Origin: Thiogranum sp.
Lineage (GTDB): Bacteria; Pseudomonadota; Gammaproteobacteria; DSM-19610
Assembly (NCBI GenBank): GCA_022340245.1
Contig: JAJDOI010000002.1
Location: 1 to 47,956, forward strand
Direction: 5' to 3'
Length of the DNA: 47,956 bases
Position 1 is the stretch's first letter, and every line of letters starts with the position of its first letter. The notes under the pieces are model-generated. The model did no database searches, had not been told where the DNA came from, and worked only from the letters and a program-made list of their open reading frames with translations. The translations under genes were made by a program, and so were the position numbers. Shown here piece after piece: positions 1,062 through 46,838 of the stretch.

Positions 1062-2765
1062 ATGACAGAGTCCACGCAGACAGCCAGCAGGCGCGGCCAC
1101 CCGGGCGCGGGCAGGAAGCGGACAAGGAAGACACCGAAAGGCCGGCAGGTAGACCCGGCCGCTCTGGCGGAAGTTCGCGAGCTGTTGGGGGAGGAGCCCC
1201 GTCGACGCGATCTGCTCATCGAATATCTGCATACGGTCCAGGATCACTACGGCCATCTGTCGGCGCGCCACCTGTCGGCGCTGGCGCAGGAGATGCGCCT
1301 GGCACAGACCGAGGTTTACGAGGTCGCGACTTTCTATGCCCATTTTGACGTCGTGAGGGAGGGGGATGAGCCGCCTCCACCCCTGACAGTGCGCGTGTGC
1401 GATGGCATTGCCTGTGAGATGGCCGGTGCCGGAACGCTGCTGGCGGAGCTGAGCGAGCAGACGGGGCGCGAGGTGCGCGTGCTGCGGGCACCCTGCATGG
1501 GGCGTTGTGATAAAGCCCCGGTCGCCGAGGTGGGTCACAATCACGTGATGCACACGAGTACCGACGCCGTGATGACCGCGATCCGCGAGGGGCGCACGGC
1601 ACCTCCGGTGCCGGAGTACATCGACTACGACGCCTATGTGGCGAATGGCGGCTACACGCTGTTACGCGAGTGCCTGTCCGGACAGCGTACTGTCGAGGAG
1701 ATCGTCGCAGCGCTGGAGCATTCGGAGCTGCGTGGCCTCGGCGGTGCGGGCTTTCCGACCGGACGCAAGTGGCGCATTGTGCGCGGTTATGAAGCCCCCC
1801 GACTGATGGCGGTCAATTGCGACGAAGGCGAGCCGGGCACTTTCAAGGACCGTCACTATCTGGAGCATGATCCCCACCGCTTCCTCGAGGGAATGCTGAT
1901 TGCCGCCTGGGTGGTGGAAGCGGCGACCTGCTACGTTTACGTGCGCGACGAATATCCGGCGATCAGGGCGATCATGAAGAAGGCGCTCGCACGCCTTGCG
2001 GCCGACGGTCTGCTGGACACGCTACCGGTAGAGGTCCGCCGTGGCGCCGGCGCCTATATCTGCGGAGAGGAATCCGCAATGATCGAGTCCATCGAGGGCA
2101 AGCGGGGTCTGCCGCGCAACCGGCCACCTTACGTCGCCGAAGTCGGGCTGTTCGGTCGACCTACGCTGGAAAACAACGTGGAGACCCTTTACTGGGTACG
2201 CGATATCGTCGAGCGGGGTCCGGAGTGGTTCGCCGGTGCCGGGCGCAACGGCCGCAAGGGCTGGCGCAGCTACTCGGTCTCGGGGCGGGTAAGGGAGCCG
2301 GGTGTCAAGCTGGCCCCCGCGGGCATCACCATCACGGAACTGATCGACGAGTTCTGCGGCGGCATGCAGGACGGCCACCGTTTCAAGGCCTATCTCCCCG
2401 GTGGCGCATCCGGGGGCATCCTGCCTGCCTCCCTGGGCGACGTGCCGCTGGATTTCGGAACCCTGGAGCAATACGGCTGTTTCATTGGCTCCGCTGCGGT
2501 GGTGGTATTCAGCGATCAGGACAACATGAAGGGTGTAGCGCTTAACCTGATGCGTTTCTTCGAGGACGAGAGCTGTGGCCAGTGCACACCGTGCCGGGCG
2601 GGCACCGAGAAGGCGGTCAAGCTGATGTCCCGCGACCGGTGGGACGAAGGGCTGCTGTCCGAACTGTCCAAAACCATGACGGACGCTTCCATTTGCGGGC
2701 TCGGGCAGGCTGCCGGTAACCCGATCAACTCGGTGCTCAAGTACTTTCGCGAGGACTTCTCATGA
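1062..2765 (+). CDS. fdhB: NAD-dependent formate dehydrogenase, beta subunit (NuoE-NuoF fusion)
   Basis: This 567-residue diaphorase subunit is cytosolic and passes electrons from the catalytic subunit to NAD+. The N-terminal third (about residues 30-170) is a NuoE/FdsG-like thioredoxin-fold [2Fe-2S] domain with cysteines in VCDGIACE and APCMGRC. The rest is NuoF/FdsB-like: GLGGAGFPTGRKW binds FMN, CDEGEPGTFKDR and GAYICGEESA line the NADH site, and ESCGQCTPCRAG plus a later SICGLG supply a [4Fe-4S] cluster. The fusion matches FDH1 of Methylobacterium extorquens, whose beta subunit is also fused and of similar length. A short basic N-terminal extension is present. The stop overlaps the start of the catalytic subunit by 4 bp, indicating translational coupling. 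Two GntR-type operators lie upstream. Confidence 0.92.
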   Translation: MTESTQTASRRGHPGAGRKRTRKTPKGRQVDPAALAEVRELLGEEPRRRDLLIEYLHTVQDHYGHLSARHLSALAQEMRLAQTEVYEVATFYAHFDVVREGDEPPPPLTVRVCDGIACEMAGAGTLLAELSEQTGREVRVLRAPCMGRCDKAPVAEVGHNHVMHTSTDAVMTAIREGRTAPPVPEYIDYDAYVANGGYTLLRECLSGQRTVEEIVAALEHSELRGLGGAGFPTGRKWRIVRGYEAPRLMAVNCDEGEPGTFKDRHYLEHDPHRFLEGMLIAAWVVEAATCYVYVRDEYPAIRAIMKKALARLAADGLLDTLPVEVRRGAGAYICGEESAMIESIEGKRGLPRNRPPYVAEVGLFGRPTLENNVETLYWVRDIVERGPEWFAGAGRNGRKGWRSYSVSGRVREPGVKLAPAGITITELIDEFCGGMQDGHRFKAYLPGGASGGILPASLGDVPLDFGTLEQYGCFIGSAAVVVFSDQDNMKGVALNLMRFFEDESCGQCTPCRAGTEKAVKLMSRDRWDEGLLSELSKTMTDASICGLGQAAGNPINSVLKYFREDFS

Positions 2766-5506
2766 GCGACTCAATCCGCTTCACCCTCGACGGAAAGGAC
2801 GTCGAGGCCGGGCCGGAGGAAACCATCTGGCAGGTTGCCAGGCGTTGCGGCACCGATGTCCCGCACTTGTGCTACTCGCCGGAACCGGGCTACCGGGCCG
2901 ACGGCAACTGCCGCGCCTGCATGGTTGAGATCGAAGGTGAACGGGTACTGGCCGCCTCGTGCCTGCGCAAGCCCACCGAGGGCATGAAGGTCCACTCGGG
3001 CAACGCGCGCGCCAGCGCCGCGCAGCGCATGGTCATGGAACTTCTGCTTGCGGATCAGCCGGCACGCCGTGTTGCCCATGACCGCGACTCTCATCTGTGG
3101 CGGTGGGCCGACCGTCTCGGTGTCAGTGAGAGCCGCTTTCCGGGCCGGGAGTCGCCCGCGCCCGATGCCAGTCACCCTGCCATGCGGGTCGCGCTGGACG
3201 CCTGTATCAATTGTAACCTGTGTGTGCGCGCCTGCCGGGAAGTGCAGGTCAACGACGTCATCGGCATGGCGTACCGCGGACACAGGTCGAAGATCGTCTT
3301 CGACCAGGACGACCCCATGGGTGCGAGCACTTGCGTCGCCTGCGGCGAGTGTGTCCAGGCCTGTCCCACCGGTGCCCTTATGGAGGCGACGCTGGTGGAC
3401 GAGCAGGGTGTCGGCATGACCGATGGACTCAAGGAGGTGGACAGCGTCTGCCCCTTCTGTGGTGTGGGATGCCAGCTGACCTACCAGGTCAGGGGCAACC
3501 GGATCGCTGCCGTACAGGGTCGCTCCGGACCGTCGAACGAGAACCGGCTGTGTGTGAAGGGGCGGTTTGGCTTTGACTACATCAACAGCCCGCAGCGGCT
3601 GACCAGGCCCCTGATCCGGCGTGACGATGCGCCCAAACGCGGGGACCTCGATCTCGACCCGAAGAACCCGTTGACGCATTTCCGGGAGGCAAGTTGGGAA
3701 GAGGCGCTGGACAGGGCAGCCAGCGGCTTCAAGGCCCTTCGTGACCGTGACGGCGGCAACGCCCTGTCGGGTTTCGGTTCGGCCAAGTGCTCGAATGAAG
3801 AGGCCTATCTGTTCCAGAAGCTGGTGCGTACCGGGTTCGGCACCAACAATGTGGACCATTGCACGCGCCTGTGTCATGCCTCGTCGGTGGCCGCGCTTCT
3901 CGAAGGCGTCGGCTCCGGCGCGGTCAGCGCGCCGTTTGGCGCCGTCAAGGATGCGGATGTGGTGATGGTGATCGGTGCCAACCCGACCGAGAACCACCCC
4001 GTTGCGGCAACCTATTTCAAGCAGGCGGCGAAGACGGGCACGCTGATTGTCATCGACCCGCGCGGTATGGCGCTCAAACGGCACGCCACGCACATGCTGC
4101 AGTTCAGGCCCGGCAGCGACGTCGCCCTGCTCAATGCCATGCTGAATGTGATCGTAGCGGAGAGGCTTTACGATCAGTCCTACGTCGATGCCCATACGGA
4201 GGGTTTCGAGAGCCTCAGCGAACACGTCAAGGCATTCACGCCGGAGGCCATGGCGCCCATTTGCGGCATCGACGCCGAGACCCTGCGCACGGTGGCGCGC
4301 ACGTATGCGACCGCCAGGGCGGCCATCATCTTCTGGGGCATGGGCGTCTCCCAGCATATCCACGGCACGGACAACTGCCGCTGCCTGATCGCACTCGCCC
4401 TGATAACCGGGCAGGTCGGTCGGCCGGGCACCGGCCTGCATCCGCTGCGTGGCCAGAATAACGTCCAGGGCGCCTCGGACGCGGGGTTGATTCCCATGAT
4501 GTACCCGGACTACCAGTTCGTGGAGAACGCCGACATCCGTCAGCACTTCGAGGACGTCTGGGGAACGCCCCTGGAGCCGCAGAAGGGGCTGACCGTGGTG
4601 GAAACCATGGAGGCGATCCACGCCGGCAAGCTGAAGGGCATGTATATTATGGGTGAAAACCCGGCCATGTCCGACCCCAACGTCCAGCACGCGCGGGATG
4701 CGCTGGCCAAGCTGGAGCATCTGGTGGTTCAGGATATCTTCCTGACCGAGACCGCCTTCCACGCTGACGTGGTGCTGCCCGCGTCCGCCTGGCCGGAGAA
4801 GGATGGCACCGTGACCAACACCAATCGCCAGGTCCAGCGCGGTCGAAAGGCCGTGGAGTTGCCGGGAGACGCACGCCAGGACTGGTGGATCACCAACGAG
4901 CTCGCCAGGCGGGTCGGTTGCGAATGGAGCTTTGCCGATCCCGCTGAGATCTATGCCGAGATGGCAAGCGTGATGCCTTCGCTGGACAACATCAGCTGGG
5001 AGCGTGTGTCCGCGGAGGCGTCGGTGACCTACCCCTGCAAGGCCCCTGACCAGCCCGGTGACGAGATCGTGTTCAGCGACGGCTTCCCCACCCCGAGTGG
5101 GCGCGGCAAGCTGGTACCGGCCGGTATCATTCCGCCCGACGAGCTGCCCGATGAATCCTTTCCCATGATTCTGACCACCGGGCGCCAGCTCGAGCACTGG
5201 CATACCGGGGCCATGACGCGACGATCCAGCGTGCTCGACGAGCTGGAGCCCGAAGCGGTTGCCAGCCTGTCGCCCGACGACATGTCGCGGATGAACATCG
5301 CGCCCGGGGCCATGATCAAGGTATCGACCCGCCGAGGGATCCTGGAACTGCGAGCAAGGGCCGACGGTGCCGTGCCCAGTGGCATGGTGTTCATTCCCTT
5401 CTGCTACGCGGAGGCACCGGCCAACGTGCTGACTAACCAGGCGCTCGACCCGTTCGGCAAGATCCCCGAGTTCAAATTCTGTGCGGCCAGGGTGGAGGCG
5501 GTATGA
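2762..5506 (+). CDS. fdhA: NAD-dependent formate dehydrogenase, catalytic alpha subunit (Mo/W-bis-MGD)
   Basis: This 914-residue cytosolic oxidoreductase subunit oxidises formate to CO2. The N-terminus is a NuoG-like [2Fe-2S] ferredoxin domain (HLCYSPEPG, GNCRAC, AASC). Two ferredoxin clusters follow (ACINCNLCVRAC and CVACGECVQACP), then the CPFCGVGC cluster that opens the molybdopterin domain. The active-site motif CTRLCH places the metal ligand at Cys371 next to His372; it is a cysteine, not selenocysteine. A C-terminal molydopterin dinucleotide-binding domain carries the TTGRQLEHWHTG element. No cysteine occurs between AASC and ACINC, so the His/Cys cluster of NuoG (H-x3-C-x2-C-x5-C) is absent. 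No fdsD, fdhD or mobA follows; only a 7-codon ORF overlaps the stop. Confidence 0.93.
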   Translation: MSDSIRFTLDGKDVEAGPEETIWQVARRCGTDVPHLCYSPEPGYRADGNCRACMVEIEGERVLAASCLRKPTEGMKVHSGNARASAAQRMVMELLLADQPARRVAHDRDSHLWRWADRLGVSESRFPGRESPAPDASHPAMRVALDACINCNLCVRACREVQVNDVIGMAYRGHRSKIVFDQDDPMGASTCVACGECVQACPTGALMEATLVDEQGVGMTDGLKEVDSVCPFCGVGCQLTYQVRGNRIAAVQGRSGPSNENRLCVKGRFGFDYINSPQRLTRPLIRRDDAPKRGDLDLDPKNPLTHFREASWEEALDRAASGFKALRDRDGGNALSGFGSAKCSNEEAYLFQKLVRTGFGTNNVDHCTRLCHASSVAALLEGVGSGAVSAPFGAVKDADVVMVIGANPTENHPVAATYFKQAAKTGTLIVIDPRGMALKRHATHMLQFRPGSDVALLNAMLNVIVAERLYDQSYVDAHTEGFESLSEHVKAFTPEAMAPICGIDAETLRTVARTYATARAAIIFWGMGVSQHIHGTDNCRCLIALALITGQVGRPGTGLHPLRGQNNVQGASDAGLIPMMYPDYQFVENADIRQHFEDVWGTPLEPQKGLTVVETMEAIHAGKLKGMYIMGENPAMSDPNVQHARDALAKLEHLVVQDIFLTETAFHADVVLPASAWPEKDGTVTNTNRQVQRGRKAVELPGDARQDWWITNELARRVGCEWSFADPAEIYAEMASVMPSLDNISWERVSAEASVTYPCKAPDQPGDEIVFSDGFPTPSGRGKLVPAGIIPPDELPDESFPMILTTGRQLEHWHTGAMTRRSSVLDELEPEAVASLSPDDMSRMNIAPGAMIKVSTRRGILELRARADGAVPSGMVFIPFCYAEAPANVLTNQALDPFGKIPEFKFCAARVEAV

Positions 5507-37882: not shown

Positions 37883-40800
37883 TCAGTGAAAGTCTCTCGA
37901 CTGTGTCAGGAGCCTGCCTAAAAGGTGGCTGTGGTCTTCCAGTCGTCCGGCTATCAGATGCAGCACTTCGCCTTCACGTTGTATTTCCCCTTCGACAACC
38001 AGCAACCGGGCTTGCAACAGGATACCGCGCTGGCGCCGCGCCAGGTCCGGCCAGACGATCACCTGGACGAGGCCGGTTTCATCTTCCAGGGTTACAAAAA
38101 TAACACCCGAAGCGCTGCTGGGGCTTTGCCGGTTGGTAACGATACCGCCGGTACGTATAAAGCTGCCATGATCACTGCCACGGATGCATGCCGCCGTCAG
38201 CATTTGCAGCCGGTCGAGTTTCCTGCGTAGCAAGGCCAGCGGATGGCGTCCCAGGCTCAGGCCCGTGCTGGCGTAGTCGGCGACCAGGTTTTCACCTTCG
38301 CTGGGCGCTTTCAGCAAGGGCGCGGCTTCATGGATCGGTGCATCCTGCAGCAGGGGCAGGGCGGGCTCGAGTGCGGCGCAGTCCCAGCGCGCTCGGTAGC
38401 GGTGGCCGGCCAGCGACCGCAGGGCACCGGCGGCTGCCAGGGCCTCGAGGTCGCCACGGTCCAGTTGCGCGCGACGCGCCAGGTCGGCAACGTTACGCAA
38501 CGGGCGTTGCGCGCGTGTTTTCAGCAGACGCTCAGCACCGTGGCGTGACAGCCCTTTGACCATGTGCAGGCCGAGACGCAAGCTGGAAGCAGCCGGCTCT
38601 GACGCCACTGTCTCCAGGCTGCTCTCCCAGTCGCTGCGGCAGCTATCCACTGGCAGGACCGTCCCGCCATGACGGCGCAGGTCGTCGACCAGCTGGCGCG
38701 GCGTGTAGAAGCCCATGGGTTGGCTGTTCAGCAGTGCGCAGGTGAAGGCCTCCGGGTAATGCTGTTTCAACCATGCCGAAACGTACACCAGTAAGGCAAA
38801 GCTGGCGGCATGCGATTCCGGGAAACCGTACTCCCCAAACCCCAGGATCTGTCGGAAAATCTGCCGGGCAAACGCTTCGCTGTAACCGCGCTCGCGCATC
38901 CCGTCCACCAGGCGCTGCTCGAAGCCGTGCAGTTCGCCGTTGCGGCGCCAGGCCGCCATGGAGCGGCGCAGCCGGTCGGCCTCGCCGGGCGAGAAACCGG
39001 CCGCGACCATGGCCAGTTTGATGACCTGTTCCTGAAAAATAGGAATGCCCAGGGTGCGTTCCAGTACTGCGCGTACGTTTTCCGAAGGATAGGTGACCGC
39101 CTCCAGTCCCTGACGGCGACGCAGGTAGGGGTGAACCATGTCGCCCTGGATGGGGCCCGGCCGCACAATGGCGACCTCGATCACCAGGTCGTAGAAACAG
39201 GCCGGACGCAGGCGTGGCAGCATGGACATCTGTGCGCGCGATTCGATCTGAAACACGCCCACGGTGTCGGCACGGGCAATCATGGCATATACCGCGGGGT
39301 CTTCGGCGGGGATGCTGTGCATAGCGAGCTGCCCGTCGTAATGACGGTTGACTACATCAAGGCAACGATGGATAGCGCTCAGCATGCCCAGCGACAGGCA
39401 GTCGACTTTCAGCAGACCCAGGGCATCGAGGTCGTCCTTGTCCCACTGGATGACAGTGCGCTCAGGCATGGCGGCGTTCTCGATAGGCACCAGCCGGTCC
39501 AGCGCTTCGCGGGCTATAACAAAACCACCAACATGTTGTGACAGGTGGCGGGGAAAGCCGATTAACTGCCCGGTCAGCTGTAACAGGCGCTCGATGACCG
39601 GGTTGTCGGGGTCGAAGCCGGCTTCCAGCAGATGGGCGCGGGAGACCTCCCGGCCGTCCCACCAGTGGACCGTTTTGCTCAGTCGCTCGACCTGGTCGAG
39701 GTCCAGGCCCAGCGCCTTGCCGACATCGCGCAGTGCGCTTTTCGGCCGGTAGCGGATCACGGTGGCGGCCAGGGCGGCGCGCTCACGGCCGTATTTTTCG
39801 TAGATGTACTGAATGACTTCCTCGCGCCGCTGATGTTCGAAATCCACGTCGATGTCCGGTGGTTCGTTGCGCTGCCTGGAGATGAAGCGCTCGAACAGGG
39901 TATCGATGCGCGCCGGATCGACTTCAGTAATGCCGAGGCAATAGCACACCGCCGAGTTGGCTGCCGAGCCACGCCCCTGGCAGAGAATGTTGCGCGAGCG
40001 TGCGAAGCGGACGATGTCGTATACCGTGAGAAAATAAGGTTCGTAATCCAGCTCGGCAATCAGCGCCAGTTCGTGCTCCAGCAGGTGGCGAACCCTGGCC
40101 GGTACACCCTCCGGCCAGCGTTGTTTCTGACCGGCTTCGGTGAGCTGGCGCAGGTATTCGGCCGGGGTAAGACCGGGTGGGGTGATTTCACGCGGGTACT
40201 CATAGCGCAGTTCGTCGAGGGAAAAATGACAGCGCCCGGCAATGCGCAGGCTTTCGTCGAGCAGTTCGCGCGGGTACAGGTGCGCCAGCCGGCTACGGCT
40301 GCGCATGCAGTGCTCGGCGCTGGCCTGCAGGGCAAAACCGGCGCTGCTGACAGGAACGCCCAGGCGAATAGCCGCGAGCGTGTCGTGCAACCTGCGCCGC
40401 TTGCGGCTGTGCATTTGCACGCCGCCGCAGGCAACCAGCGGCACCCCCAGTTGTTGTCGCAGTTCCCGCAGGTGTTGCCAGCGTTGCCGGTCACGGCCGT
40501 CCAGTCTGTGGTGAACGCCCAGCCAGGCACGTCCGGCAAAATACTGTTGCATCCATTTTCCTGTGTGTTGTATCACGTCGTGATCACATATGTAGGAATT
40601 GGTCCAGATCAGCAGGCAGCCCCGCAGCGGCGCCAGATCGTCCCGCTGAATAGCGTACCGACCCTTGCCGGCCCGGCGTCGTGCCCGGCTGATCAGGGCG
40701 GACAAATCACCGTAACTGCCGCGGTCGGTTGCCAGCAGCACCAGTCGTGGGCCGTCGTCGAGCTGGAATTCACTGCCGACAATCAGGTCCAGCATCGCTT

Positions 40801-40984
40801 CACGGGCAGCCAGGTGAGCGTGCACCATGCCCGCCAGCGAGCACTCATCGCTTAATGCCAGGGCGCGGTAGCCGAGTCTTTTTGCTTGCATGACAAGTTC
40901 TTCCGGATGCGAGGCGCCGCGCAGGAAGCTGAAATTACTCAGACAATGCAGCTCGGCATACCCCGGCGGCGATGGCTTTTGCAT
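37883..40984 (-). CDS. dnaE2: Error-prone DNA polymerase DnaE2
   Basis: This 1033-residue C-family polymerase is the SOS-induced translesion homologue of DnaE. It begins with the PHP domain (YAELHCLSNFSFLRGASHPEELV). The polymerase core has GRGSAANSAVCYCLGIT and the catalytic aspartates in PPDIDVDFEHQRREEVIQYIY. IFQEQVIKLAM and GFPESHAASFALLVY follow, and an OB domain (GGIVTNRQSP) lies near the end. The open frame reaches back to 41101, but the ATG at 40984 matches the family start and lies 15 bp after a perfect LexA box; the longer frame would translate that box. Neither imuA nor imuB is adjacent, which is unusual. Confidence 0.95.
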   Translation of the reverse strand: MQKPSPPGYAELHCLSNFSFLRGASHPEELVMQAKRLGYRALALSDECSLAGMVHAHLAAREAMLDLIVGSEFQLDDGPRLVLLATDRGSYGDLSALISRARRRAGKGRYAIQRDDLAPLRGCLLIWTNSYICDHDVIQHTGKWMQQYFAGRAWLGVHHRLDGRDRQRWQHLRELRQQLGVPLVACGGVQMHSRKRRRLHDTLAAIRLGVPVSSAGFALQASAEHCMRSRSRLAHLYPRELLDESLRIAGRCHFSLDELRYEYPREITPPGLTPAEYLRQLTEAGQKQRWPEGVPARVRHLLEHELALIAELDYEPYFLTVYDIVRFARSRNILCQGRGSAANSAVCYCLGITEVDPARIDTLFERFISRQRNEPPDIDVDFEHQRREEVIQYIYEKYGRERAALAATVIRYRPKSALRDVGKALGLDLDQVERLSKTVHWWDGREVSRAHLLEAGFDPDNPVIERLLQLTGQLIGFPRHLSQHVGGFVIAREALDRLVPIENAAMPERTVIQWDKDDLDALGLLKVDCLSLGMLSAIHRCLDVVNRHYDGQLAMHSIPAEDPAVYAMIARADTVGVFQIESRAQMSMLPRLRPACFYDLVIEVAIVRPGPIQGDMVHPYLRRRQGLEAVTYPSENVRAVLERTLGIPIFQEQVIKLAMVAAGFSPGEADRLRRSMAAWRRNGELHGFEQRLVDGMRERGYSEAFARQIFRQILGFGEYGFPESHAASFALLVYVSAWLKQHYPEAFTCALLNSQPMGFYTPRQLVDDLRRHGGTVLPVDSCRSDWESSLETVASEPAASSLRLGLHMVKGLSRHGAERLLKTRAQRPLRNVADLARRAQLDRGDLEALAAAGALRSLAGHRYRARWDCAALEPALPLLQDAPIHEAAPLLKAPSEGENLVADYASTGLSLGRHPLALLRRKLDRLQMLTAACIRGSDHGSFIRTGGIVTNRQSPSSASGVIFVTLEDETGLVQVIVWPDLARRQRGILLQARLLVVEGEIQREGEVLHLIAGRLEDHSHLLGRLLTQSRDFH

Positions 40985-40998
40985 GGGTGTGTTCGCAA

Positions 40999-41018
40999 TA
41001 CTGTAAATATATACAGTA
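40999..41018 (-). promoter_or_regulatory. LexA (SOS) box before dnaE2
   Basis: TACTGTAAATATATACAGTA is a full match to the gammaproteobacterial LexA consensus CTGT-N8-ACAG with both flanking TA pairs. It sits 15 bp before the dnaE2 ATG and about 130 bp before the divergent gene at 41146, so it may control one or both. Confidence 0.93.
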
Positions 41019-41145
41019 TAATGGAAACAGGGGATGACTGGAAAGATGGTGTGAGGGTTGATAAAGTCGCTGCTCAAAGTGGTATGAAAATCCGCTGACA
41101 TCCCGCATTGTTTGCGGGGTTAGAGTGAATCCAGGGGGCTGTGGC

Positions 41146-41550
41146 ATGGTTGACCCGGACCCAAAGGTCTGGCAGGGAAAAGATGGTATATTGCGAGTCC
41201 AGTACCCGCAGGATTTCAATCTCACGCTGGAGGTGATGGAGTTGGTTCACCGCAAGCGGCTGGAACTCATGGCCACGCCCTGTCCACTGCTGATCTATGC
41301 AGATACCGTTGCGTCCGCGGAATACGAAGCCCAGCAGTTCGCATCACGCGAAGATGTCGCCGAGCTTATTACCGGTATGGGTATTATTGTCAGGTCGGTA
41401 TTTACCCGCGCCATGTCAGAAATATTCATGCGCTTTCACCGGCCGCCATACCCGACGCGTATATTCAAGGAGGAACAGCCGGCGCTTGAATGGCTGACCC
41501 AGTTTCTGCCACGGGACAGCGGTGCGTGTGATGCCGGTGATGCATCCTGA
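41146..41550 (+). CDS. Hypothetical protein divergent from dnaE2
   Basis: This 134-residue cytosolic protein was not assigned to a family. Its pattern (a strand, a long helix FNLTLEVMELVHRKRLELM, a strand PLLIYADTV, a helix SREDVAELI, a strand and helix, then PTRIFKEEQPALEWLTQFL) resembles STAS or SpoIIAA-like folds. In those folds the C-terminal helix EEQPALEWL is common. A GTG at 41125 is in frame, but the ATG at 41146 has an AGGGGG ribosome binding site. It is 6 bp before the uracil-DNA glycosylase-family gene and shares an intergenic region with a LexA box. Confidence 0.65.
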   Translation: MVDPDPKVWQGKDGILRVQYPQDFNLTLEVMELVHRKRLELMATPCPLLIYADTVASAEYEAQQFASREDVAELITGMGIIVRSVFTRAMSEIFMRFHRPPYPTRIFKEEQPALEWLTQFLPRDSGACDAGDAS

Positions 41551-41556
41551 TCCAAC

Positions 41557-42159
41557 GTGAAGACCGGCAAGAGGCAACACGGCCTGCCAGCCTTACTGAA
41601 AGAGATACGCGCCTGCCGCAACTGCGAGGCCACGCTGCCATTTGCGCCAAAGCCGGTGCTGCGCGCCAGGGAGTCGGCCAGACTGCTGATTGTGGGCCAG
41701 GCGCCGGGCACCCGGGTTCATGAGACCGGCATTCCCTGGAATGACCCCAGCGGAGACCGTTTGCGGCGCTGGCTGGCGGTGGACCGGGAATTTTTCTACG
41801 ATGAAAACCGTGTCGCCATTGTGCCCATGGGGTTCTGTTATCCCGGGAAAGGTAAATCCGGCGACCTGCCTCCGCGTCCCGAGTGTGCGCAGTTGTGGCG
41901 GCAACGCTTGCTGGATTGTCTGCCCAATATTGAACTGACCTTGCTGATAGGTCAGTACGCGCAGCAGTACCATATCCCGGGGGCGGGGAAGTCCGTTACG
42001 GAAGTTGTGCAGCGCTGGCGGGAGTTGTTGCCCGCTTATTTTCCCACCCCGCATCCGTCACCGCGCAACCAGCTCTGGCTGCGGCGAAATGACTGGTTTG
42101 AACGCGATGCGGTGCCCGCCTTGCGAGGTGTTATAAAAAAGCTGTTTCCGGATATGTAG
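41557..42159 (+). CDS. Uracil-DNA glycosylase superfamily protein
   Basis: This 200-residue protein belongs to the UDG superfamily. Motif 1 is LIVGQAPGTRVHETGIPWNDPSGDRLRRWL and motif 2 is PTPHPSPRN, with a central FCYPGKGKSGDLPPRPEC. An N-terminal pair of cysteines (CRNCEA) and a later cysteine (PECAQLW) recall the families that carry an iron-sulphur cluster, but the full ligand set is not obvious. Members excise uracil or related damaged bases; some of this subgroup have no proven activity. The start is GTG at 41557. It is likely co-transcribed with the hypothetical gene upstream and may be in the SOS neighbourhood with dnaE2. Confidence 0.8.
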   Translation: MKTGKRQHGLPALLKEIRACRNCEATLPFAPKPVLRARESARLLIVGQAPGTRVHETGIPWNDPSGDRLRRWLAVDREFFYDENRVAIVPMGFCYPGKGKSGDLPPRPECAQLWRQRLLDCLPNIELTLLIGQYAQQYHIPGAGKSVTEVVQRWRELLPAYFPTPHPSPRNQLWLRRNDWFERDAVPALRGVIKKLFPDM

Positions 42160-42352: not shown

Positions 42353-42619
42353 ATGAGCGATGAAGACAGCCTGCTGGAGTTTCCCTGTGCCTTCCCCATC
42401 AAGGCCATGGGGCGCTGCGATAGTGGCTTCGAGGCCCGGGCGCTGGCGATCGTGCGCCGCCATGTGCCGGATTTCGACGTCGCAGCGATGCGCACGGTTG
42501 CCAGCCGCCAGGGCAATTACCTGTCAGTAACCTTCACGATCCAGGCCCGCAGCCGGGAACAGTTGGATAACCTCTATCGCGAGTTGAGCGCTTGCGAAGA
42601 ATTGCTGATGGTGCTGTGA
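42353..42619 (+). CDS. ybeD: YbeD/DUF493 family protein
   Basis: This 88-residue protein matches the YbeD family: LLEFPCAFPIKAMGR, a helix, VPDFDVAAMRTVASRQGNYLSVTFTI, and the end REQLDNLYRELSACEELLMVL. It has a small ferredoxin-like ACT-related fold and no known enzymatic role. The position directly before lipB and lipA is conserved in gammaproteobacteria. The frame is open from 42179, but the ATG at 42353 fits the family start. The stop overlaps the lipB ATG by one base (TGATG). Confidence 0.92.
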   Translation: MSDEDSLLEFPCAFPIKAMGRCDSGFEARALAIVRRHVPDFDVAAMRTVASRQGNYLSVTFTIQARSREQLDNLYRELSACEELLMVL

Positions 42620-43269
42620 TGCCGATCGAGCCGCAAGCGCGCGACGCAGCGCCCGCGCTGCAGGTCACAAACCTGGGGCTGCGTGACTATATACCGGTCT
42701 GGCACGATATGCAGGCGTTCACCCAAACGCGCGATGCGGACGCCGCGGACCAGGTCTGGCTGCTGCAGCACCCGCCGGTTTTTACCCTCGGGATGAACGC
42801 CAGGCGTGAACACCTGCTGGCCCCCGGGGGCATTCCCGTGGTCGATGTCGATCGCGGCGGGCAAGTGACGTACCACGGCCCGGGGCAGTTGCTGGCCTAT
42901 GTGCTGCTCGACCTGCGGCGCCGGCATATGGGGGTACGCGGCCTGGTGGATGTGCTGGAGCAATCGGTTATTGAATGGCTGCGCTGCAACGGGGTGACAG
43001 CACGGTCACGCGCCGATGCGCCCGGTGTGTACGTCGAAGCAGCCAAGCTCGCCGCTCTGGGTCTGCGCGTCAGGCGTGGCTGCAGCTATCATGGCCTGGC
43101 GCTGAATGTGGATATGGACCTTGCGCCGTTTGCCCGGATTAATCCCTGTGGCTATGAGGGCATGCCGGTCACGCAGACGAGTGAGCTGGGTATCGATATG
43201 ACGGTCGACGAAGTGGCGCGGCAGTGGCTGCCGTATCTCGTTGAACGGCTGGAACACTTTGGGAATTAA
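42619..43269 (+). CDS. lipB: Lipoyl(octanoyl) transferase
   Basis: This 216-residue enzyme transfers octanoate from acyl carrier protein to lipoyl domains of 2-oxoacid dehydrogenases and the glycine cleavage H protein. It has HPPVFTLGM, the [12 protein letters not shown] block, [14 protein letters not shown] with the catalytic lysine, and INPCGYEGM with the catalytic cysteine. The start ATG at 42619 overlaps the ybeD stop. lipA follows after 5 bp. Confidence 0.97.
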
Positions 43270-43274
43270 ACGCT

Positions 43275-44213
43275 ATGTCCGACCAACAGAGCAAACACCA
43301 GCGCGGCGCGGAAAAAACCGCGCGTATCCCCGTCAAGATAGAGCCGACGGTGAGCCCCATGCGCAAACCCGCCTGGATCCGCGCCAAGTCACCTGCCGGA
43401 CCCGAAGTGCAACGACTGAAAAGCGTGCTGCGTGAAAACCGGCTGCATACCGTGTGCGAAGAGGCGTCGTGTCCGAACCTCGGCGAGTGTTTTGCTCACG
43501 GCACGGCGACCTTCATGATCATGGGCGACATCTGTACCCGGCGCTGTCCCTTCTGCGACGTGGCGCACGGCCGTCCTGACCCCCTGGATGCAAACGAGCC
43601 ACTCGGTCTGGCGACAACCATCAGGGGAATGGGGCTGCGCTACGTGGTGATCACTTCTGTCGATCGCGATGATTTGCGCGACGGCGGGGCCGGGCATTTC
43701 GTCGCCTGTATACAAGCGGTGCGTGAGCTCAATCCCGATATTCAGATCGAGATTCTGGTGCCGGATTTCCGCGGCCGCAAGGATCGGGCCCTGGGAATTC
43801 TGCGTGCCGCGCCACCGGACGTCTTCAATCACAATCTCGAAACCGTTCCCCGCCTGTATAAAAAGGCCCGGCCCGGTTCGGATTATCAATGGTCGCTTGA
43901 ACTCCTGAGGCAGTTCAAAAAGGAGCACCCGGAGGTGCCATCCAAGTCCGGCCTGATGCTGGGCCTCGGGGAAACACTGGATGAAGTCGAGCAGGTCATG
44001 CGCGACATGCGCATGCACGACGTGCAGATGCTCACACTCGGTCAGTACCTGCAGCCGAGCAAACACCACCTTCCGGTCGAGCGCTTTGTTCATCCGGAGG
44101 AGTTCGAGCAACTGCGCGAGCTGGGCGAGTCACTCGGCTTCAGTCAGGTCGCCAGCGGCCCGATGGTGCGTTCCTCCTACCATGCCGACCAGCAGGCCGC
44201 AGGCCTGGTGTAA
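43275..44213 (+). CDS. lipA: Lipoyl synthase
   Basis: This 312-residue radical SAM enzyme inserts two sulphur atoms into octanoyl-lysine. The auxiliary cluster motif [12 protein letters not shown] and the radical SAM motif CTRRCPFC are both present, as is the C-terminal RSSYHA whose serine binds the auxiliary cluster. [10 protein letters not shown] and [13 protein letters not shown] are typical. Length is normal. Confidence 0.98.
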
Positions 44214-44227
44214 GGATTCAGCCACCG

Positions 44228-45295
44228 GTGCACCTGCTCGCGGCGATTACACCGCATGGCTTCGGTCATGCCGCACAGGTTGCGCCCGTGCTGAATGTGC
44301 TGCGGAAACGACATCCCGAGCTGCGCCTCACGCTGCTGACCAGCCTGCCCCCGGCGTTTCTGCGCGGGCGCATCCAGGGCGAGTTCGAGCTGATCGAAGA
44401 TGCCCCGGATTTCGGGCTGATAATGAGTTCCGCATTCGCCATCGACCTCGAGGCGAGTGCAGCCGCATACCGCCGGCTGCACGATGACTGGGGCGGGCGT
44501 CTGGACCGGGAAGCGCAACGCCTTCGGCGGCTGTCCCCGACTCTGGTGCTTGCCGATGTGCCTTACCTGACGCTGGCGGCGGCCGACCGCGCGGGCATTC
44601 CCGCTGTGGCCATGTGCTCGTTGAACTGGGCCGATGTCTACCGGCACTATTTCCTGCAGCGCCCGGAAGCGCCAGGTATCCTGGAGCAGATGGAGGAGGC
44701 GTATCGCAGCGCGCGTGTTTTCCTGTGTCCCGAGCCCTCCATGCCCATGCCGTTTCTCGACCGGCGGGTCGCAATCGGTCCGATCGCGACCGTTGGCAGG
44801 TCGCAGGCCAAAAGCCTGCGTGAGCAGCTGCGGCTCGGCGCAGCTCAGCGCCTGATCCTGGTCGCGCCCGGTGGCGTGAACGCGCGCTTTCCCATGGAGT
44901 CCTGGCCCGCGGGGCAGGGTATACACTGGCTTGTGAGTGCGGATTGGCAGGTGCGACACGCCGACGTCAGCAGCTACCAGGACACGGGCCTTGCCTTTAC
45001 GGATCTGATAGCCTCGTGTGACGCGGTACTGGGCAAATGCGGCTATGGCACGGTTACCGAGTGCGCGGTCAATGGCACACCCCTGATGTACGTCCCGCGC
45101 CCCGACTGGCCGGAAGAGGCGACGCTGCTCGGCTGGTTGCAAGCCCGTCATGGCGCCCTGACAGTCGAGGCGCAGCGCCTCGAAAGCGGCCGTTTTGCAG
45201 ATCTGGTGGCGCCGCTGCACTCCTTGCAGCCCAGCCCCTGTGAGCCAAACGGTGCAAGCCAGGCCGCCGACCGGATAAGCGCTTACTTCAGCTAG
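44228..45295 (+). CDS. GT-B fold glycosyltransferase-like protein (L-arabinokinase N-domain-like)
   Basis: This 355-residue protein has a GT-B nucleotide-sugar fold. The first domain reads HLLAAITPHGFGHAAQVAPV, then VLADVPYLTLAAADRAGIPAV and SLNWADVYRHYF. The second has LILVAPGGVNARFP, FTDLIASCDAVLGKCGYGTVTECAVNGTPLMYVPR and a D-W-EEA end. HGFGHA and the NW-D-Y element recall the N-terminal domain of plant L-arabinokinase and UDP-sugar glycosyltransferases. No kinase domain is attached. The start is GTG at 44228. The gene is 14 bp after lipA and 12 bp before the GDP-hexose phosphorylase-like gene, so they may act together on sugar nucleotides. Donor and acceptor are unknown. Confidence 0.7.
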   Translation: MHLLAAITPHGFGHAAQVAPVLNVLRKRHPELRLTLLTSLPPAFLRGRIQGEFELIEDAPDFGLIMSSAFAIDLEASAAAYRRLHDDWGGRLDREAQRLRRLSPTLVLADVPYLTLAAADRAGIPAVAMCSLNWADVYRHYFLQRPEAPGILEQMEEAYRSARVFLCPEPSMPMPFLDRRVAIGPIATVGRSQAKSLREQLRLGAAQRLILVAPGGVNARFPMESWPAGQGIHWLVSADWQVRHADVSSYQDTGLAFTDLIASCDAVLGKCGYGTVTECAVNGTPLMYVPRPDWPEEATLLGWLQARHGALTVEAQRLESGRFADLVAPLHSLQPSPCEPNGASQAADRISAYFS

Positions 45296-45307
45296 GTAAT
45301 CGCAACC

Positions 45308-46366
45308 ATGAATTCACCCGACACCCGTTTGTTTGCGTCGCCGGAGTCGTTCCGCCGGGGCTTTGAGCAGGGACTTGAGCGACTGCTCGATGGCGGCGGG
45401 CTGAACCTGTTTATCCTGGTGGCGGCCAACGCCAGTTGCGAGGCATCGCTGTTTTCCGACCTGCGCGATCGACTGCAGACACGCTATGGGCAGCTGTCGG
45501 CGTGCTTGAGGGAGGCTTTCGTTCATGGCCGCCTTGTCGAAGAGTCGGACGACGATCTGCTGGTATTTCTGAAAATCACCTGTATCGGTTTCGACGCCCT
45601 GACGCTGACCGAACAGCGCCAGGCCGGCGTGTGGGAGGTGCAGTTCAATCAACTGCGCTCCTTCCGGCCGCTGCGCAACAGCCAACGGCCGATGACATCC
45701 ATCCACGCGCCATTCGATGCGCAGGGTTTCAATTTCAACAAGCCCTTTATGCAACAGGAAGCGCTGTGGTCCGGCGATCTGTTGGGCACGCACTTCGATC
45801 TCTATTACAACAAGTACCCGTTCGTTGACCTGCATTGCCTTCTGGTGCCGGAGCGGCAACGTTGCCTGCCACAGTTTCATCGCCAGGGTATGCACGCCAG
45901 GGTCTGGCAACTGGTGCAGTTGCTGGCCGAAGGGCTGCCCGGAATCAGAGTCGGCTACAATGCGCTGGGCGCATTTGCTTCGGTCAACCATCTGCATTAC
46001 CAGTTGTTTGTTCGCGATCTGCGTCTGCCGGTTGAAAGCGCAAACTGGAGGCACAACGGCGGCGCTGATGACTATCCAGTGGATTGTCGGCTGTTCAGTT
46101 CGGCCGACGCCGCCTGGCAATATATCGAGGCGCTGCATGCGCGCAATGAAGCCTACAACCTGCTCTACACGCCGGCGGGCATGTATTGCATGTCGCGCCG
46201 GATGCAGGGTGGATTTCGTCTCGCCGACTGGTCGAGTGGTTTTTCCTGGTATGAAATGTCTGGCGGTATGATTACATTCAACCATCAGGCTTTCTCGGCG
46301 CTACAGGAGGCGCAGATCAGTACGGAACTGGAGCGCGCACGCCTGGCGCGGGTGAAGGACCGGTAA
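45308..46366 (+). CDS. GDP-hexose phosphorylase-like protein (VTC2/GDPGP1, HIT/GalT superfamily)
   Basis: This 352-residue protein resembles the VTC2/GDPGP1 group of the GalT/HIT superfamily, which phosphorolyses GDP-hexoses. Shared elements are WEVQFNQLR, FDAQGFNFNK, the FVDLHCLLVPER-LPQ strand pair, and VGYNALGAFASVNHLHYQLF with the catalytic histidine motif H-x-H-x-Q. A C-terminal helix region with YNLLYTPAGMYCM also fits. There is no signal peptide. The genes in plants (vitamin C synthesis) and animals (GDP-glucose clearing) are well known; a bacterial copy beside lipA is not something I recognise. The comparison is from memory, so the substrate is open. It lies 12 bp after the glycosyltransferase-like gene. 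Confidence 0.65.
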   Translation: MNSPDTRLFASPESFRRGFEQGLERLLDGGGLNLFILVAANASCEASLFSDLRDRLQTRYGQLSACLREAFVHGRLVEESDDDLLVFLKITCIGFDALTLTEQRQAGVWEVQFNQLRSFRPLRNSQRPMTSIHAPFDAQGFNFNKPFMQQEALWSGDLLGTHFDLYYNKYPFVDLHCLLVPERQRCLPQFHRQGMHARVWQLVQLLAEGLPGIRVGYNALGAFASVNHLHYQLFVRDLRLPVESANWRHNGGADDYPVDCRLFSSADAAWQYIEALHARNEAYNLLYTPAGMYCMSRRMQGGFRLADWSSGFSWYEMSGGMITFNHQAFSALQEAQISTELERARLARVKDR

Positions 46367-46430: not shown

Positions 46431-46838
46431 ATGACTGCGTCGACAACTGACAGCAATGCCGAGCCGCTGGTGATAGTGGTCAATGGCGAGGTGCAGGTTG
46501 AATATCAACGCGGCAAACCGCTGCCGCAGGCTCAGCATGCCTACCTGGACCGGATGGACGAACAGATGGGTGCTGGCGTGCGGCTGGGTGGTGTTCGGGT
46601 AGCGCAGCCCGACGCGCTGCAGCGCGCCCAGTTCGTGGCTATCCAGCTCCTCGAGGGATTGCAAAATGGGAGCGATCCCCTGGTCGCCGCGGGTTGCGCC
46701 TATCTCGCCAGTCGCCTGCCGGACCTTACCCAGGTCAAGGCGCGTGTGGTCGATGGCGGTTTTTCGGCGGAACTGGTGTTTAACGAGCCGTACGTCAAGG
46801 AAGTGGCGGTCGAATTTCCCGCGCGCCCATCGTCCTGA
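46431..46838 (+). CDS. Hypothetical protein
   Basis: This 135-residue cytosolic protein was not recognised. It shows an N-terminal strand pair (EPLVIVVNGEVQVEYQRGK), a helical middle (AYLDRMDEQMGAGVRL, AQFVAIQLLEGLQNGSDPL) and a C-terminal strand pair (VVDGGFSAELVFNEPYVKEVAVEF). It is 12 bp before the YcgL gene on the same strand, so the two are probably co-transcribed. The ATG at 46431 has only a weak ribosome binding site. Confidence 0.65.
   Translation: MTASTTDSNAEPLVIVVNGEVQVEYQRGKPLPQAQHAYLDRMDEQMGAGVRLGGVRVAQPDALQRAQFVAIQLLEGLQNGSDPLVAAGCAYLASRLPDLTQVKARVVDGGFSAELVFNEPYVKEVAVEFPARPSS

Follow-up and report, generated by a model that had tools for sequence, protein, structure and literature searches.

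A VTC2-like protein family in bacteria that carry APS reductase: relation to plant GDP-L-galactose phosphorylase and a candidate ADP sulfurylase function

What would a bacterium do with a relative of GDP-L-galactose phosphorylase (GGP, VTC2), the plant vitamin C enzyme, and is the glycosyltransferase-like gene beside it its partner? Prokaryotes possess no clear ascorbate synthesis (PMC4396506). The window (the whole stretch of 47,956 nucleotides analysed here) comes from an incomplete genome of 3.4 Mb (92% completeness) in a small order; among named genomes, its close relatives are MAGs that bear the labels Thiogranum and Thiohalobacter. Both open reading frames of the predicted pair are present on the forward strand: a 355-aa glycosyltransferase-like protein with a GTG start (GT; 44228..45295), directly 3' of lipA, and a 352-aa VTC2/GGP-like protein of the HIT superfamily, a predicted nucleotidyltransferase or phosphorylase (45308..46366). 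Upstream, on the same strand, lie lipA (lipoyl synthase; 43275..44213) and, before it, lipB (octanoyltransferase; 42592..43269), both recognised by synteny and by reading their sequences rather than by a profile run. Only 14 nt separate lipA from the GT gene and 12 nt the GT gene from the VTC2-like gene; given these short gaps, co-transcription of all four genes is plausible. No promoter or terminator signal scored above shuffled sequences at this locus.

Family and fold of the VTC2-like protein

As a single sequence, the window protein matched nothing significantly in Pfam, NCBIfam or the PDB, and nothing on plasmids or phages. Its score against Ap4A_phos_N (13.2 bits) lay under the curated cut-off of 23.1, and the Pfam search returned neither ATP_transf (PF09830) nor DUF4922 (PF16269). 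A profile built from 25 diverse homologues (A2) was more informative: it gave weak-to-moderate matches to HIT, Ap4A_phos_N, ATP_transf and DUF4922 (the last also matching weakly in 5 of the 25 members) and, in the PDB, matched yeast Apa2 (E 7e-5). Neither the window protein nor A2 matched a GalT Pfam domain, even with E values up to 1 admitted. Against plant GGP, represented by the motif sequences of potato and pepper (PMC11222470, Table 2) set in order with X between them and not by full proteins, the A2 profile scored 56.0 and 42.8 bits (E 3e-14 and 3e-10 in a PDB-sized search), and it matched none of 1000 shuffled copies of these strings; nine canonical bacterial Ap4A phosphorylases reached at most 28.6 bits with it. 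Alignment of profiles with hhalign gave 99.3% (E 3e-20, 223 columns) for A2 with the ordered GGP motif strings and 96.5% (E 7e-10, 193 columns) for A2 with Apa, while Apa aligned directly with the same GGP strings gave only 3.6%. The VTC2-like family thus appears, from these alignments, to be intermediate between Apa and plant GGP and nearer the latter. The likeness to plant GGP in the original prediction is accordingly upheld, and by sequence the protein is not closer to Ap4A phosphorylases. The protein encoded at 45308 is a member of a proteobacterial family that lacks a curated model in both Pfam and NCBIfam, within the third HIT branch (GalT, Ap4A phosphorylase and GGP). The literature places plant GGP in or beside the DUF4922 superfamily of CDD (PMC11047344, PMC9871823); DUF4922 belongs to the same superfamily as the VTC2-like family. 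A genuine DUF4922 protein from another class of the phylum (L172:1405-2520, genome G486), met in a draw of genomes from the phylum, is only distant kin of the family.

The motifs point in two directions. The HIT-type motif GYNALGAFASVNHLHYQ (residues 216-232; 45953..46003, + strand) is conserved through 89 distinct homologues, with N218, S225, N227 and H230 invariant (89/89) and H228 kept in 88; the third HIT position, Gln232 in the window protein, is Q in 68 and H in 21. Together with FNFNK (residues 141-145; 45728..45742, + strand), which is colinear with FNFTK of plant GGP, it forms the series FNF(N/T)K and GYNxLGAFAxxNHLHxQ in the same order as in plant GGP, including the HxHxQ form of the HIT motif. 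In contrast, the YNKYPF motif (residues 167-172; 45806..45823, + strand), whose Y, K and P are invariant in 89/89 homologues, resembles NKFP of Apa and differs from NVSP of GGP; the family form is YNK(F/Y)PFxxxH, and the NVSPIEYGH motif of GGP is absent from it. The Apa motif GASQxHKHLQ is absent from the 89 homologues. The family also differs from plant GGP in being bacterial, about 350 aa long and almost confined to bacteria with APS reductase; from Apa1/Apa2 (PF19327 plus PF09830) it differs in falling under the curated cut-off, in having NHLHYQ instead of QxHKHLQ and in occurring mostly in different genomes.

The AF2 model of the protein (pLDDT 93.8, pTM 0.92) matched yeast Apa2 best across the chain among solved structures (Foldseek E 3e-8, TM 0.46-0.57), followed by GalT (E about 5e-3); the structures matched included no GGP, and the ranking of Apa2 holds among those only. 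On the nearest family, solved structures point to Apa2 and sequence to GGP. The HIT-branch fold, an HxHx(Q/H) motif and an invariant central His are all present, and His230 is the predicted catalytic nucleophile. GGP lacks the third His, which according to PMC11066809 tilts the reaction towards phosphate and away from hydrolysis, and by analogy the same logic may apply to the VTC2-like family. Since the NK(F/Y)P motif is Apa-like, base and substrate specificity are not readable from the motifs alone.

Distribution and association with APS reductase

The family was found in 26 of the 369 genomes sampled from the class Gammaproteobacteria; a draw of 289 genomes from the phylum contained two carriers, both of the window's class, the source genome of the window being one. 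GTDB genomes yielded 305 encoding stretches when scanned, and the carriers named among the best 80 of these include Thiobacillus, Parasulfuritortus, Sulfuricella, Gallionellaceae, Thiohalomonas, Thiodiazotropha and tubeworm symbionts. The named carriers are for the most part lineages that oxidise sulfur or iron, together with symbionts that oxidise sulfur. In a tree of 88 family proteins, the window's genus formed one fully supported clade. One family member, from a contig assigned by its label to a Candidatus Altiarchaeales archaeon, falls within gammaproteobacterial sequences in this tree; the contig is probably mis-binned.

The gene for dissimilatory APS reductase, aprA, was called with TIGR02061 at its cut-off, which 103 of the 369 genomes pass. 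It was found in 23 of the 26 carriers, or 24 when one genome with aprA split between contigs (G257) is included, leaving two carriers without it (G106 and G235). With split copies counted, aprA is present in 24/26 carriers and 85/343 non-carriers (Fisher p 5e-12), and when genomes are collapsed by taxonomic family, which accounts for kinship only in part, in 15/16 and 39/166 (p 3e-8); the genome lists for these tests and for those with RuBisCO were entered by hand. The draw is rich in autotrophs (RuBisCO in 174/369). The association with aprA persists within RuBisCO-positive genomes (p 1e-5), and RuBisCO adds nothing significant within aprA-positive ones (p 0.15); autotrophy, as marked by RuBisCO, explains the distribution less well than aprA does. 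The distribution of the family is thus patchy and strongly tied to dissimilatory APS reductase. Many aprA-positive genomes have no VTC2-like gene, including one of the window's own genus (G011).

ATP sulfurylase is encoded in nearly all carriers and comparison genomes; because almost all carriers retain it, a role of the family as its replacement was rejected. Canonical Apa (PF09830) is rare, occurring in 26/369 genomes, and is likewise enriched with aprA (14 of the 26 are aprA-positive, p 0.006). It overlaps with the VTC2-like family in a single genome (G366, of the 26 carriers). Two Thiobacillus genomes contain the VTC2-like family, and no PF09830 protein was found in them.

The candidate reaction and its alternatives

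The preferred reading, to which we assign a probability of roughly 0.47, is that the VTC2-like protein is a nucleotidyltransferase of the ADP sulfurylase type that phosphorolyses adenylylsulfate (APS), and that the GT is not its obligate partner. The chemistry, judged from the family, is most likely a double displacement with phosphate as the acceptor: His230 would attack the alpha-phosphate of a nucleotide anhydride, a covalent nucleoside-monophosphate intermediate would form on this residue, and the nucleoside monophosphate would then be handed to inorganic phosphate. In the usual hosts, APS made by APS reductase would react with phosphate to yield ADP and sulfate, giving a phosphate-dependent branch beside ATP sulfurylase. 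The choice of APS as the substrate is tentative and a shade weaker than the reading as a whole; it is favoured on two grounds. The hosts of the family are mostly those with APS reductase, and in Thiobacillus denitrificans a nucleotidyltransferase is established to carry out the phosphorolysis of APS (Bruser et al. 2000, as cited in PMC8232776 and PMC5461723, where its title speaks of 'a new family of nucleotidyltransferases'). The VTC2-like protein resembles this adenylylsulfate:phosphate adenylyltransferase (APAT), compared by description only, in its proposed reaction class and in host physiology. APAT is reported to fall into one group with GalT and the Ap4A phosphorylases and to possess a subunit of about 41 kDa; the yeast Apa proteins also show some activity as ADP sulfurylases. 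The presence of the VTC2-like family, tied to aprA, in two Thiobacillus genomes that yielded no PF09830 protein is consistent with, and no proof of, its identity with APAT. The known T. denitrificans enzyme could instead belong to PF09830, since that family is also enriched in aprA-positive genomes. Further points against APS are the ATP sulfurylase kept by nearly all carriers, the aprA-positive non-carriers, the two carriers without aprA, the incomplete correction of the co-occurrence for kinship, the action of the GGP kin on GDP-hexoses and the neighbourhoods of the 80 named loci, whose recurring genes included none recognised as apr or sat.

Closest behind comes a bacterial GDP-hexose phosphorylase of the VTC2/GDPGP1 type that recycles or proofreads GDP-sugars to GDP and hexose-1-phosphate. 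Plant GGP is the closest sequence family among those tested, and the stretches FNF(N/T)K and GYN(S/A)LGAFA(S/T)(V/I)NHLH(Y/F)Q are common to it and the bacterial family. A GT-like gene is adjacent within the genus, and outside it, in non-adjacent positions, the GT occurs in 17/34 carriers and 4/34 aprA-positive non-carriers (p 6.5e-4, uncorrected for kinship). However, GDP-sugars are common to most bacteria, whereas the family is patchy and found mostly in those with APS reductase; moreover, NKYPF resembles Apa and not NVSP of GGP, and the 80 named loci showed no recognisable, recurrent cluster of sugar-nucleotide genes next to the VTC2-like gene. We consider this reading unlikely, and the role in nucleotide-sugar salvage proposed originally is not borne out, as the distribution points elsewhere. 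With the family almost confined to sulfur-oxidising bacteria, APS is the more likely substrate than a sugar nucleotide.

Less probable still is an Ap4A phosphorylase (Ap4A and phosphate to ADP and ATP) standing in for canonical Apa. The best solved-structure match and the significant profile match to Apa suit it, as does the near absence of PF09830 from carriers, with a clear protein only in G366. Nevertheless, the window protein scores under the Ap4A_phos_N cut-off without an ATP_transf match, GASQxHKHLQ is absent, and Ap4A metabolism offers no reason for an association with aprA.

Reports of ADP sulfurylase activity in sulfur oxidisers go back a long way, but annotations of its gene are rare. 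A family present in 26/369 genomes and tied to APS reductase is a concrete candidate for that gene; a curated sulfur-gene database holds, according to its table, a single seed sequence for apt (PMC10199032). If APS is the substrate, a substrate-level phosphorylation step would be added to many uncultured chemolithoautotrophs and symbionts, and a bacterial bridge would connect the Ap4A phosphorylases with the plant vitamin C enzyme. That sulfur oxidisers at large employ this VTC2-like protein to clear APS by a second route, dependent on phosphate, and that the family is a widespread unannotated set of ADP sulfurylases bridging Ap4A phosphorylases and GGP in sequence, is a bolder proposal and rather doubtful. 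The fold and the chemistry are known, and what is new is a family without a curated model in Pfam or NCBIfam; should it prove to be that of the T. denitrificans enzyme, the chemistry would be known already and the news would be its breadth and the link to GGP. If the substrate were a GDP-hexose instead, the bacterial protein would have its counterpart in a quality-control enzyme described, in the literature consulted on GGP-like proteins, only from plants, animals and scattered protists.

The neighbouring gene and the locus

The neighbour was originally compared with the sugar-nucleotide domain of L-arabinokinase, a likeness traced as far as a GT-B fold of the GT1 type. Its AF2 model (pLDDT 76, with residues 213-271 poorly predicted) matched GT1-family folds (best Foldseek E 3e-10), and the protein gave weak Glyco_trans_1_3 matches, in keeping with GT1/GT28 glycosyltransferases and the N-domain of L-arabinokinase. 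Unlike L-arabinokinase, in which a GT-B-like N-domain is fused to a GHMP kinase, the 355-aa neighbour has no kinase domain.

The pairing of the two genes, also part of the prediction, was seen only in the window's genus, whose 8 carriers all have them side by side. Outside the genus, the 80 named loci showed no conserved neighbour of the VTC2-like gene, and a search with the GT profile through the DNA flanking the loci of other genera, in many cases as far as 6 kb, gave no additional hit. Of the 20 genomes from the window's order, 16 matched the GT profile and 8 contained the VTC2-like gene. Two genomes (G006 and G011) show the order lipA, GT and a small orphan gene, precisely without the VTC2-like gene, and three more (G009, G017 and G003) have lipA and GT without it; these five belong to the window's genus or family. 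Since the GT is kept at the lipA locus in its absence, the VTC2-like gene is the variable element. In the genus, lipA is the conserved partner of the GT; the latter is probably a stable neighbour of lipA and not an obligate partner of the VTC2-like protein, and the partnership of GT and VTC2-like gene is local to the genus. That the two form a functional pair for nucleotide-sugar salvage is thus very improbable: the 12-nt spacing, the 8/8 adjacency and the weak genome-level co-occurrence outside the genus suit it, but the five genomes with GT alone at the lipA locus and the lack of adjacency seen in other genera argue against it.

The orphan of 135 aa (46431..46838, + strand) is conserved in the genus, where it directly follows the VTC2-like gene, or the GT where that gene is absent, and it matches no Pfam or NCBIfam family above cut-off. 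Upstream of lipB, a gene for a UDG-superfamily protein (41557-42159), which scores far under the named UdgX and family-4 models, is kept in most members of the genus. The gene for a DUF7793 protein (41125-41550) adjoins that for a DnaE2-type polymerase (37883-41101, - strand), a synteny also kept in the genus. At the other end of the window, positions 1062-5506 contain adjoining genes that resemble FdsB and FdsA of NAD-dependent formate dehydrogenase.
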